From: a virus
Virus record (IMG/VR): IMGVR_UViG_3300022871_000036
Location: 1 to 42,183 of that record
DNA: 42,183 nt
Reading direction: 5' to 3' (one strand)
The position numbers were made by a program, and so were the translations under genes. This document shows, in pieces, positions 6,686 through 14,578 of this stretch. A model generated the notes under the pieces. That model did no database searches and was not told the origin of the DNA. It saw nothing but the letters and a program-made list of their open reading frames with translations. Positions within the stretch are counted from its first letter, which is position 1, and each line of letters opens with the position of its first letter.

Positions 6686-6707
6686 GATAGAACAGAGAGT
6701 GAATGCG

Positions 6708-6742
6708 GAGGGGATGGGCTCACACCCATCCCCTCTCTTTTT
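6708..6742 (+). terminator. Rho-independent terminator
   Basis: A perfect 11-bp stem (6708-6718 with 6725-6735) closes a 6-base loop, CTCACA, and is followed by TCTTTTT. It ends the tail/lysis transcript 22 bases after the lipoprotein stop. The remaining 6743-6870 carries no gene or motif that I can support. Confidence 0.9.
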
Positions 6743-6925: not shown

Positions 6926-9151
6926 GTGGGAAAATACAAGGATTTTCTATCAACAAAGAAACTCGTATTCAGTGCGTCTGGGAAGCACGCCGATGATTCA
7001 GAGATTCATCAGATGTTATTTCCATTCCAGCGAGATCTAACGAAGTGGGCGTTGAGAAAGGGACGGTCTGCAATCTTCGCAGATACCGGACTCGGCAAGA
7101 CGTTCATGCAGGTAGAGTGGGCTAGGCTCACTGGATGCAATACGCTGATCATTGCGCCTCTGAGCGTTGCGAGGCAGACAGTTCGCGAGGCCAAGAAGAT
7201 CGACGTCGACATTGAGTATGTCAGGGATCAGCCTGACGGACATGGCATCTTCATCACGAACTATGAGATGATTGACAAGTTCGATGCGTCCAAGTTCGGC
7301 GCGGTTGTTCTTGATGAGTCTAGCATATTGAAGTCTCTCGACGGCAAGACTCGACAGAAGCTAATCGAGATGTTCGCAGAGGTTCAGTATCGTCTATGCT
7401 GCACGGCTACTCCCGCGCCGAATGACATATCTGAGATCGCCAATCATGCAGAGTTCCTTGGCATCATGTCTCGCGTTGATATGCTCGCGTGCTTCTTCGT
7501 TCATGAAGCCAATACAAAGAACGCCCAAGGATGGAGGATCAAGGGCCACGCTGTCGAAGCGTTCTATAAGTGGATGGCATCGTGGGGAATGAGCGTGAGA
7601 CGTCCGTCCGATCTCGGATACTCAGACGATGGATTCGATCTGCCTCCATTGTCTATCGAGCCGATGTACGTAGACGCTGGCTACGTTCCTAGCGGCAGGC
7701 TGTTCCTTGATGAGCTGAAAGGCATCCAGGATCGTGCCAAGGTACGAAGAGAGACTATCGGAGCCAAGGTTGAAGCTGCTGCTGAGATGGTCACAGAGAG
7801 TGACGAACAATGGCTAGTCTGGTGCGGGTTGAATGCTGAGAGCAACGCGATGGCAAAGGCTATCGATGGATCTGTTGAGGTCCAAGGTAGTGACTCACTA
7901 GATTACAAGAGTGACCAACTAGAGGCATTCCAGGCTGGAAAGATCCGCGTTCTAGTGACCAAGCCGAAGATAGCTGGATTCGGTATGAACTTCCAGAACT
8001 GCCACAACATGCTATTCGTCGGGCTGTCTGATTCTTGGGAAGCATACTATCAGGCGATCCGCAGATGCTACCGATTCGGCCAAGAGAATCCTGTCAACGT
8101 GAGGATCGTGTTGGCAGACATCGAGAAGGACATCTTTATGAACGTGATGCGCAAGGAGGCTCAAGCGACTGCTATGTCAGAACAGCTAATTAACAACGTC
8201 CAACAATACGAGCGAGAAGAAATCGAGGAAGCGTCAGCGGTTGAGTTCAACTATTCCGAGGATGAAGAAGTTGGCGAAGGGTGGAAGATCAAATTAGGAG
8301 ATAGCACGGAACGTCTAAGGGAGATAGATGCGGATAGCATTGGGCTGTCCGTCTTCTCCCCTCCGTTCCTATCACTGTACACGTATAGCCCGACTGAGAG
8401 AGATCTAGGGAACAGCAAGACGCCCACTGAGTTCTTCACCCACTTCCAGTATATCATCGACGAGCTTCTGAGGGTCACGTTGCCCGGTCGTAATTGCGCT
8501 GTCCACGTTGCGCAAGTCCCAGCCACGAAGAACCATGATGGGTATATCGGCCTGAAGGATTTCAGGGGAGATGTTATCAAGGCGTTCGATGAGCGAGGAT
8601 GGCATTACTATGGCGAGGTGTGCATCGACAAAGATCCACAAGCGCAGGCTATCAGGACGAAAGCTAAGTCGCTGATGTTCGTCACGCTAAATAAGGATTC
8701 ATCTGCTCTACGTCCTGCGCTCGCTGATTACGTTCTAGTGTTCAAGAAGCCTGGAGAGAACGAGCTGCCAGTGTTGCCAGTTGAACACGGCGAGATGGAC
8801 AATAACACGTGGATCGAATGGGCGCGTCCTATCTGGTACAACATCCGAGAGACGAATACTCTCAACGTGCGAGTCGCGAGGACGGAGAAAGACGAGCGCC
8901 ATATATGCCCGCTACAGCTTGAGACTATCGAACGTTGCGTGAAACTATGGAGCAACCCCGGCGACTTGATCCTAGACCCATTTGCTGGCATTGGATCTAC
9001 CGGATACGTCGCCATCGAGAATAACCGGGAGTTCATAGGGATAGAACTGAAGCCTGAATACTTCGCTGTCGCAGTGAATAACTTGCACGCAGCTAACCGC
9101 AAGGCGGCTACTCTGGATCTGTTCTCTTATGATGACTCGTCGGGTGCCTAG
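6926..9151 (+). CDS. SNF2/SF2 helicase fused to beta-class DNA methyltransferase
   Basis: 741 residues, GTG start after AGGAGGCG. The N-terminal half is an SF2/SNF2-type helicase: Walker A ADTGLGKT (52-59), DEAH-box equivalent DESS (130-133), motif III CTATP (159-163), and motif VI QAIRRCYRFGQ (376-386). The C-terminal half is an amino-methyltransferase: catalytic motif IV SPPF (478-481) precedes the AdoMet-binding motif I DPFAGIG (684-690). That order defines the beta class (N4-cytosine or N6-adenine). No nuclease domain is visible, so it should modify DNA rather than cut it. The helicase part may remodel or translocate DNA for modification. The likely role is protection from host restriction. 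Codon choice is richer in ATC, CTA and AGC than in flanking genes, suggesting separate ancestry. Confidence 0.9.
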   Translation: MGKYKDFLSTKKLVFSASGKHADDSEIHQMLFPFQRDLTKWALRKGRSAIFADTGLGKTFMQVEWARLTGCNTLIIAPLSVARQTVREAKKIDVDIEYVRDQPDGHGIFITNYEMIDKFDASKFGAVVLDESSILKSLDGKTRQKLIEMFAEVQYRLCCTATPAPNDISEIANHAEFLGIMSRVDMLACFFVHEANTKNAQGWRIKGHAVEAFYKWMASWGMSVRRPSDLGYSDDGFDLPPLSIEPMYVDAGYVPSGRLFLDELKGIQDRAKVRRETIGAKVEAAAEMVTESDEQWLVWCGLNAESNAMAKAIDGSVEVQGSDSLDYKSDQLEAFQAGKIRVLVTKPKIAGFGMNFQNCHNMLFVGLSDSWEAYYQAIRRCYRFGQENPVNVRIVLADIEKDIFMNVMRKEAQATAMSEQLINNVQQYEREEIEEASAVEFNYSEDEEVGEGWKIKLGDSTERLREIDADSIGLSVFSPPFLSLYTYSPTERDLGNSKTPTEFFTHFQYIIDELLRVTLPGRNCAVHVAQVPATKNHDGYIGLKDFRGDVIKAFDERGWHYYGEVCIDKDPQAQAIRTKAKSLMFVTLNKDSSALRPALADYVLVFKKPGENELPVLPVEHGEMDNNTWIEWARPIWYNIRETNTLNVRVARTEKDERHICPLQLETIERCVKLWSNPGDLILDPFAGIGSTGYVAIENNREFIGIELKPEYFAVAVNNLHAANRKAATLDLFSYDDSSGA

Positions 9152-12359: not shown

Positions 12360-12581
12360 ATGCAAGTGAGCGAGTGCCCGTTCTGCGGAAAGATTGATCC
12401 GGTGAATGTGTTATTCCAATCTGAGATTGAAGGCGTGGAGGCTTGCCCGGATTTCATGGCAGTTGTGTGTGACCGCCGAGAGGGTGGATGTGGCGGGGTT
12501 GGCCCGTACAAGCTGACAAGCGAGGAAGCAGAGATTGCGTGGAACACGAGGGGAGGGAAGGAATGTCCGCGAACAATATAG
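12360..12581 (+). CDS. Lar-like restriction alleviation protein
   Basis: 73 residues, ATG after GAAGGAGGAAGG. The signature is S-E-C-P-F-C-G near the N-terminus, V-V-C-D-R-R-E-G-G-C-G-G-V-G-P in the middle, then T-S-E-E-A-E-I-A-W-N-T-R near the end. This matches the Lar family, in which CPFCG, a second Cys pair and EAIxAWN are diagnostic. Known Lar proteins modulate host type I restriction-modification. It sits in the same block as the helicase-methyltransferase, giving two candidate anti-restriction functions. It overlaps the SSB gene by 19 bases. Confidence 0.75.
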   Translation: MQVSECPFCGKIDPVNVLFQSEIEGVEACPDFMAVVCDRREGGCGGVGPYKLTSEEAEIAWNTRGGKECPRTI

Positions 12582-12904
12582 TGCTGATCGGGGGGAGGTT
12601 GTGCCGCCCCCCTGAGTTGACGTACTCAGCAACGGGAACCGCCATGACCAAGATGAGGATCGCCGTTGACCACAAGTACAAGGTTGGTGAGGAGTTGAGG
12701 GAGGATACCAGTTTCGTTCCGGTGAGAGTGTTTGGCCCCCAGGCCGAGGCTTGTGCGAACCACCTTAACCAGGGAGATGAGGCTTGGGTCGAGGGTAGGT
12801 TGCGGACGTTTGAAACGGGTGAAGGAGATGCGAAGCGGTATCACTTTGAAGTGAAGGCCCATGACGTGCGGTTTGGGAGGAAGGCGCGGGTGAATCAGGA
12901 ATGA
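12563..12904 (+). CDS. ssb: Single-stranded DNA-binding protein (OB fold)
   Basis: 113 residues, ATG at 12563 after GGGAGGGAAGGA. The OB-fold markers are N-N-I-V-L-I-G-G-R-L, P-E-L-T-Y-S-A-T-G-T-A-M, F-V-P-V-R-V-F-G-P-Q-A-E, and W-V-E-G-R-L-R-T-F. These match bacterial SSB. The protein ends soon after the OB domain and lacks the acidic DDIPF-type tail of host SSB. It may therefore coat DNA without recruiting host SSB-binding partners. It is positioned between recombination and replication genes. Confidence 0.85.
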   Translation: MSANNIVLIGGRLCRPPELTYSATGTAMTKMRIAVDHKYKVGEELREDTSFVPVRVFGPQAEACANHLNQGDEAWVEGRLRTFETGEGDAKRYHFEVKAHDVRFGRKARVNQE

Positions 12905-13544: not shown

Positions 13545-13573
13545 TTGGATCATCGAGAGTAACGTGTTACAAT
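13545..13573 (+). promoter_or_regulatory. Sigma-70-type promoter for replication initiator
   Basis: TTGGAT (13545-13550), a 17-base spacer, then TACAAT (13568-13573) with a TGT extended -10. This is the best consensus match in the window. Transcription should start near 13580, exactly at the first base of the structured leader's outer stem. Confidence 0.8.
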
Positions 13574-13579
13574 AGATGC

Positions 13580-13659
13580 GTGGGCGAGGAGCCGGAGCCT
13601 TGCCTGTCAAGTCGCTCCTTTATCGGGGTGACTCGCCCACACTACTCTTCCGATAGGAG
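13580..13659 (+). ncRNA. Structured 5' leader RNA with possible pseudoknot over the ribosome site
   Basis: The outer stem GTGGGCGAG (13580-13588) pairs perfectly with CTCGCCCAC (13632-13640). Inside it, GGAGC-CTTG (13594-13602) pairs with CAAG-TC-GCTCC (13608-13618) across a 5-base loop with a 2-base bulge. TATCGG (13621-13626), within the outer stem, is the exact complement of CCGATA (13650-13655), beyond it. That gives an H-type pseudoknot that runs into the AGGAG ribosome site at 13655-13659. G-U pairs could extend it to about 10 bp. The arrangement suggests control of translation of the TTG-started initiator gene. The class matches no riboswitch I know; the trigger is unknown. Confidence 0.6.
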
Positions 13660-13669
13660 TTGATGGCTT

Positions 13670-14578
13670 TTGCCAGCAAAAGATACAACACGCCGCGCAC
13701 CTTGGAATCCTCTTCTCAAAGGCTACCCGTTCAGCGAGAAAGTCAATTCCATCTCAGTCGGCGCTGAGACGTTATTCACCCGCCTTGTAGCCCAGGCTGA
13801 CGATTATGGCAACTACTACGGCAATCCGAAGCAGATCCTAGCCTATCTTTATGGGCATCGTTTTGCTGCGGGGGAAGTATCTGCAACGGATACGGGCCGT
13901 TGGCGTGCCGAACTCGTAACGAACACGGTTGGACCTCTCGCGGCACTCTACACCGTTAACGGCTCGGAGTACATCCATTTGATCAATCCGAGGCGACGAC
14001 TTCGCAATGATGTTTCAGCTGATGAGAGGTTCCCAAGAGAGCCCGCAAACATAGAAGAGAATGTTATTTCAGAGCACGTAACGAAAACGGAACGCGAACG
14101 TACCGTAAACGGTGCGCTAGACCTAGACCCAGACCAAGAGGCAGACCAAGACCAAGAAGAACCTTCATCCGAAACAACCTCATATATGAGCAAGAAGGGG
14201 CGCAAGCTCGCAGGCGACAAGCTCACATGGTTCAATGAGTTCATGGGTGCGTTCAACTACAAACGAGGCAAGGCCGCCGCCGCCGACTCATGGCTAGACA
14301 TCAAGTCCCTCACCAGAGAGCTAGTAGACGAGATCGTAGCAGGCGCGAAGCGTGAGTGTGCGAGGAGGGCGACGCTGCGGCCTGACCAGACGGCGAAGAT
14401 GGCGCAGGGGTGGCTTACTGATCGTAGGTGGGAGGACGAGCCTGTAGAGACGGGGCGCTCTCGGGCATCGGGCGGGGCAGATTCAGACGTGTATGAGCGT
14501 GGGCTAAAGGAGCGAAGGGATAAGGCGGAGCTGGCGCGGAAGAAGATAGAGGGCGAGAAAGGGGGCGGTCGTGAATAG
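13670..14578 (+). CDS. Replication initiator / replisome organiser protein
   Basis: 302 residues. TTG at 13670 is the only start in this frame after the TGA at 13661; AGGAG lies 10 bases upstream. The N-terminal winged-helix region has S-V-G-A-E-T-L-F-T-R-L-V-A-Q-A-D-D-Y-G-N-Y, a hallmark of phage replication initiators, followed by Y-I-H-L-I-N-P-R-R-R. A linker rich in D, Q and E spans about 140-175. The C-terminal domain has W-F-N-E-F-M-x-A-F-x-Y, GKAAAADSWLDI and KMAQGWLTDRRWED, as in related proteins. It probably marks the origin and loads the host replisome. No phage polymerase is visible. The leader RNA upstream probably controls its level. Confidence 0.75.
   Translation: MPAKDTTRRAPWNPLLKGYPFSEKVNSISVGAETLFTRLVAQADDYGNYYGNPKQILAYLYGHRFAAGEVSATDTGRWRAELVTNTVGPLAALYTVNGSEYIHLINPRRRLRNDVSADERFPREPANIEENVISEHVTKTERERTVNGALDLDPDQEADQDQEEPSSETTSYMSKKGRKLAGDKLTWFNEFMGAFNYKRGKAAAADSWLDIKSLTRELVDEIVAGAKRECARRATLRPDQTAKMAQGWLTDRRWEDEPVETGRSRASGGADSDVYERGLKERRDKAELARKKIEGEKGGGRE

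Follow-up and report, generated by a model that had tools for sequence, protein, structure and literature searches.

Leaders in which long-range RNA pairing governs a ribosome-binding site are known from several systems. In the repZ/repA leaders of IncI-alpha, IncB and IncL/M plasmids, control depends on both an antisense RNA and a leader peptide; translation of the leader peptide opens the leader, and a pseudoknot frees the ribosome site of the initiator gene. In T4-type phages, the gene 32 mRNA carries a pseudoknot 67 nt upstream of the start codon, which nucleates the binding of gp32 to an unstructured ribosome site (PMC3014915). In the cobalamin riboswitch, the L5-L13 kissing loop consists of five contiguous pairs and promotes a hairpin that masks the ribosome site (PMC10653944). 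In addition, the putL and putR RNAs of phage HK022, each of about 70 nt, form two stem-loops downstream of early promoters, with putL directly after its promoter and with a bulged stem I (PMC9378689).

Here we describe a leader that precedes a replication initiator gene in the window, by which we mean the whole stretch of viral DNA analyzed (42,183 nucleotides; IMG/VR virus record IMGVR_UViG_3300022871_000036), and compare it with related leaders and with the systems above.

The leader in the window

The elements of the leader are listed in Table 1. The original prediction had described a perfect 9-bp outer stem, an inner hairpin, the complementarity between the two strands of the pseudoknot and the adjoining AGGAG, and all of these were found in the sequence where it had placed them. 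The promoter that it had recognized before the outer stem is also present, but "near-consensus" overstates its quality, as the -10 box matches at five of six positions and the weak -35 box at three of six, and a generic promoter scan did not list it. The same arrangement, TTGGAT-N17-TAYAAT, is shared in position by five of the leaders described below (window, L004, L079, L091 and L147; ten in total). The start codon assigned to the initiator gene, TTG at 13670, is credible because homologues of the protein have ATG at the same residue (MPAK...).

Table 1. Predicted and observed elements of the leader and of the gene that follows it
Feature	Position	Strand	Sequence or remark
Promoter	13545..13573	+	-35 TTGGAT 13545-13550, 17-bp spacer, -10 TACAAT 13568-13573; read from sequence
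Predicted +1	G13580	+	start of transcription predicted from the promoter
Stem-loop SL1	13580..13640	+	fold with the pseudoknot strands free; topology common to 10/10 leaders
P1, outer stem of SL1, 9 bp	13580-13588 / 13632-13640	+	GTGGGCGAG / CTCGCCCAC; sequence
P1b of SL1	13591-13593 / 13627-13629	+	constrained fold
P3, terminal hairpin of SL1	13594-13602 / 13608-13618	+	contains a 2-nt bulge; constrained fold
3' bulge of SL1	13619-13626	+	constrained fold
Pseudoknot 5' strand	13621..13626	+	TATCGG; inside the 3' bulge of SL1; letters of both sides differ among relatives
Pseudoknot 3' strand	13650..13655	+	CCGATA; shares the first base of AGGAG
Alternative hairpin P2	13611..13632	+	GTCGCTCC 13611-13618 / GGGGTGAC 13625-13632
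Possible Shine-Dalgarno-masking hairpin	13644..13660	+	ACTCT 13644-13648 / GGAGT 13656-13660; loop is the pseudoknot 3' strand
Possible 18-codon leader reading frame	13600..13656	+	TTG start preceded by GAGG; ends in TAG at the Shine-Dalgarno
Shine-Dalgarno	13655..13659	+	AGGAG; sequence
Replication initiator gene, 302 aa	13670..14578	+	TTG start; PHROGs replication initiation / primosomal protein

Within the window, the segment 13580-13669 folds moderately better than its shuffles (z -2.6), and SL1 gives a z of -3.41. Stems of 9 bp and comparable span are not rare, with eight in the window versus zero to six in shuffles, and the 6-bp pseudoknot of the window taken alone is not significant (p about 0.10). 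It is the comparative evidence from ten distinct leaders that leads us to regard the feature as real.

A search of the whole window against Rfam 15 at the gathering threshold gave no match, in agreement with the earlier view that the leader fits no known riboswitch class; at a permissive threshold the best matches (E 4-7) were to snoRNA models and are read as chance. A described phage leader of this kind was likewise not found in the open-access literature.

With regard to the phage itself, an actinobacterial host appears possible because Arthrobacter, Gordonia and Mycobacterium phages encode proteins with about 50% identity to the helicase-methylase of the window and because the early gene order resembles that of Arthrobacter phage Zucker. 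In the window, a single gene (6926-9151) fuses the SNF2-type helicase to the N6/N4 DNA methylase, while the annotations of actinophages Zucker, Malisha and Fancypants give each its own gene, side by side. Upstream of the fused gene, an inverted repeat at 6707-6742 (GAGGGGATGGG CTCACA CCCATCCCCTC) with TCTTTTT behind it resembles an intrinsic terminator.

Ten related leaders and their common architecture

Relatives were sought through homologous proteins, sequence patterns, an RNA model and a descriptor of the structure, which gave ten distinct leaders at eleven places, the nearly identical leaders of L147 and L002b being counted once. The leaders of L004, L009 and L017 were reached via initiator homologues, that shared by L020 and L077 via a pattern, that of L147 via a P1 pattern and that of L079 via the RNA model. 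Those of L078, L002a, L002b and L091 were first reached via the descriptor with a pseudoknot filter; L078 was also recovered without this filter, as was the leader of L002b in the form of L147. All of them lie on IMG/VR contigs except that of L017 (JAGMDA010000706.1), a 3,351-base contig in a Candidatus Eisenbacteria MAG, which carries the phage initiator together with the leader and could represent either a prophage or a phage contig that was binned wrongly.

A final scan of 1.5 Mb, in which a promoter, stem, topology, pseudoknot and ribosome site were required, returned exactly the known leaders at -28 kcal/mol or better. The next matches were weaker, the first of them at -26, and are read as chance; the same scan of the reversed sequence gave no match. 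Among 50,697 phage records there was no match by DNA similarity; tblastn with the window initiator gave none either, and the RNA model, run over 47 genomes from the phylum to which the MAG contig is assigned, found the known contig only, nine further matches being rejected on inspection. Homologues of the L079 initiator occur at two loci only, with 100% identical proteins. The pattern CCGTCTT...ACTC...AAGGGG hit 55 stretches, the real ones being just two that were already known, and GCGGGCG...CGCCCGCA was too loose and yielded chance matches only.

A leader-like structure was also seen before repO of Pontimonas phage phiPsal1 (L315, 14795-14890), where a 7-bp complementarity resembles a pseudoknot and a hairpin of 8 bp lies at the repO ribosome site, and none of 400 shuffles was as good. 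It was not counted as a member because freeing its pseudoknot strands costs about 16 kcal/mol and the bulge topology is absent.

When the pseudoknot strands were kept free, all ten leaders folded into one topology with differing letters, forming an RNA of about 80 bases. The outer stem is imperfect, with 12-17 pairs, and in every leader it begins within a few bases of the predicted transcription start with a G-C closing pair. Its 3' side carries a bulge of 8-11 nt, the terminal hairpin has 4-9 pairs, and a linker of 5-10 nt follows; beside a stem of 12-17 bp, this linker may be sterically tight in some members. The bulge pairs with a strand at the ribosome site through 6-8 Watson-Crick pairs, and this covarying pairing, which touches the Shine-Dalgarno or overlaps it, stops 9-15 nt short of the start codon in each of the ten leaders. 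Combined over the ten leaders, some of which are closely related and all of which are taken as independent, the stability of the stem-loop gives a Stouffer z of -9.15.

The pseudoknot was present in all six leaders that had been found without a pseudoknot criterion (L004, L009, L017, L020, L079 and L147), with a combined p of 1.6e-6 when these related sequences are treated as independent. Each bulge matches its own partner over 6-8 bp, and matches the strands of other leaders mostly over 2-5 bp, the exceptions being leaders with related pseudoknot letters. In every helix, pairs are altered on both sides between members. For example, UAUCGG/CCGAUA in the window corresponds to CUUUGG/CCAAAG in L147/L002b, within a stretch otherwise 81% identical, and CUUUGGA/UCCAAAG in L004 to CUUUGCG/CGCAAAG in L079. 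Furthermore, G-U pairs occur in the stems, indicating that the sense strand is the folded strand. Sequence comparison shows the fold, the pseudoknot and its position near the start codon. The original prediction had made its case depend on compensatory changes in related phages that keep the initiator, and such changes are present: the homologues in L004, L009 and L017 retain the leader with both sides of the pairings altered. The original view of a structured leader whose pseudoknot reaches the ribosome site is supported in this respect.

An alternative hairpin, P2, is also conserved. An equivalent stem was found by scan in nine of the ten leaders and by inspection in all of them (Fisher 6e-7, over related sequences). 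The P2 loop encloses part of the pseudoknot strand, and P2 is incompatible with P3 and P1b. A structure with P2 only was our first idea and was demoted to an alternative once folding with free strands gave one topology in 10/10. In seven leaders, P2 and the bulge conformer differ by no more than 3 kcal/mol; in the exceptions the preference is strong, for the bulge conformer in L004 and L079 and for P2 in L002a, and bistability is therefore not uniform. A conserved P2 that is nearly isoenergetic in these seven leaders suggests a two-state switch.

As the outer stem begins near the predicted start and is closed by G-C throughout, the leader might instead be a protective structure, whose paired first base would shield early mRNAs from decay that depends on the 5' end while the pseudoknot mainly stabilized the fold. 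This explanation seems to us quite improbable, since the reach of the pairing to the Shine-Dalgarno, at a near-constant distance from the start codon, and the retention of a competing hairpin would both be left unexplained.

Downstream of SL1, which is itself clear, a second stem-loop is weak. A hairpin masking the Shine-Dalgarno is seen in constrained folds and is statistically weak (Stouffer z -1.98), and a reading with a separate Shine-Dalgarno hairpin and a kissing loop is retained as weak only. Seven leaders contain a short frame whose end lies 4-13 nt upstream of the gene start, five of these with a Shine-Dalgarno-like sequence; such frames are missing in L004, L079 and L147. Their start codon, place and sequence vary between leaders and the peptide is not conserved; they may be due to chance.

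These elements bear on the possibility that the pseudoknot turns translation on, as in repZ/repA of the IncI-alpha, IncB and IncL/M plasmids. The window leader shares with these a long-range pairing to a ribosome site beside a replication initiator, the weak masking hairpin might serve as the inhibitory element to be opened by the pseudoknot, and short frames are common, that of 18 codons in the window among them. We consider activation unlikely, however, in view of the variation and partial absence of these frames and of the place of the pseudoknot strand, which adjoins or overlaps the Shine-Dalgarno and does not lie on an inhibitory arm. In addition, no conserved antisense promoter of the type scanned for was detected in the leaders (best scores 6-8 of 12, scattered), and some leaders precede genes other than replication genes.

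Downstream genes and exchange of the leader

The leaders of the window, L004, L009 and L017 precede one replication-initiator family (four of the ten), and two others precede different replication initiators, namely a DnaD-like gene in L079 and an HTH/replication initiation gene in L078. The remaining four stand before unrelated genes: a helicase-methylase gene in L020, an HNH gene with NUMOD4 in L002a, a T5orf172/MUG113 gene in L091, and, in L147, a gene for an unnamed protein that is cut by the contig end; the L002b copy of the last leader precedes a ParB-like plus Dam methylase gene. A single-stranded DNA-binding protein (SSB) gene follows none of the ten leaders, and that of the window (12488-12904) lies upstream of the leader. 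In turn, the initiator homologues of L001, L002, L006, L015 and L016 have no leader directly upstream; in L002, a leader is located about 1.5 kb upstream of the homologue on the same strand.

Because unrelated genes carry the leader and several initiator homologues lack an adjacent one, the leader cannot simply be taken as the initiator's operator, and the suggestion of an initiator-specific switch, possibly bound by the initiator itself, is not upheld. The small-molecule ligand that had also been considered is disfavored, as no invariant unpaired core is apparent among the ten leaders. Thus, although the four leaders before one initiator family and the two before other initiators would suit an autogenous operator or a small-molecule riboswitch, we judge both very improbable given the four unrelated genes, the lack of an invariant core and the absence of an Rfam match.

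Two leaders of the same architecture occur in one phage, L002, at 1085 and 3464, before the NUMOD4-HNH endonuclease and ParB-Dam genes, respectively. Their pseudoknot letters do not cross-match (L002b is represented by L147 in the matrix).

An RNA of about 80 nt that starts at a promoter and is found twice in one phage could also act in the manner of put, which binds the zinc-binding domain of the RNA polymerase beta' subunit and suppresses termination: the nascent leader, folded beside an early promoter, would make RNA polymerase resistant to termination, and its proximity to the start codon would be incidental. The recurrent interval of 9-15 nt between the conserved pairing and the start codon, with contact to or overlap of the Shine-Dalgarno, makes this rather unlikely, and no invariant unpaired bases were seen as possible polymerase contacts.

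In a stretch of 93 bp that begins at -2 and reaches slightly beyond the start codon, the leaders of L147 and L002b are 98.9% identical, and their immediate flanks are unrelated. As these two loci share the leader alone, the leader itself is the moving unit, a cassette. Between L147 and L079, the 109 bp that run up to and into the first leader bases are 85% identical. Sequence comparison thus shows the leader to be inherited and exchanged as a cassette reaching from the predicted transcription start to the start codon.

Proposed control and comparison with known systems

We think it fairly likely, on balance, that the leader is a 5'-terminal, cis-acting RNA of roughly 80 nt by which a phage early transcription unit controls translation of its first gene. 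Translational control is the best explanation because in 10/10 leaders the pairing adjoins or overlaps the Shine-Dalgarno and ends close before the start codon, and masking would be the simplest sign of such control. Judging from the promoter, transcription would begin at the outer stem or a few bases from it. The RNA would then form one long stem-loop, whose bulge, as the comparison supports, pairs with the bases just before or overlapping the Shine-Dalgarno. With this pairing formed, the landing site of the 30S subunit would be held in folded RNA and translation would be expected to be low. P2 would compete with the terminal hairpin and the inner stem, taking the bulge strand into its loop, so that two states of similar energy could be switched.

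The candidates for the switching factor are a host factor, a shared phage protein, the ribosome itself or a physiological cue; such a factor or cue is likelier than the product of the downstream gene because the same leader precedes unrelated genes. The leader is probably a new kind of on/off control of phage protein synthesis. More tentatively, and as a possibility that we hold well short of probable, an uncultured phage clade might use exchangeable two-state leaders on unrelated early genes as a regulon, with private pseudoknot letters preventing cross-pairing and one shared phage or host factor flipping all of them from masked to open.

As in T4 gene 32 (PMC3014915), a phage gene for DNA metabolism has a 5' leader that contains a pseudoknot, and the role of the leader would again be translational. 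Unlike in gene 32, the pseudoknot strand here is in contact with the Shine-Dalgarno, and many different genes follow the leader, none of them encoding SSB. With the cobalamin riboswitch it would share a tertiary pairing from an upstream domain that promotes masking of the ribosome site, along with competing alternative pairings (PMC10653944); it differs in having no aptamer core or Rfam match, in a partner strand that is the 3' bulge of one stem-loop and in a pairing of 6-8 bp. A long-range pairing near the ribosome site of an initiator has been described for the repZ/repA leaders of IncI-alpha, IncB and IncL/M plasmids (Asano & Mizobuchi 1998, as cited in PMC10724649), whereas in the present leaders there is no conserved antisense promoter and the leader frames are not conserved. 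HK022 put resembles the leader as a structured RNA at early phage promoters, with more than one copy per genome and a bulged stem, but put acts on RNA polymerase and is not tied to a start codon, and the term "pseudoknot" is absent from the structural paper (PMC9378689).

Each of these nearest known systems shares one aspect with the leader without being a clear match to it. A leader with a covarying pseudoknot that serves unrelated phage genes and travels as a cassette would be another, more general phage system, and it would also be a compact, portable translational switch.
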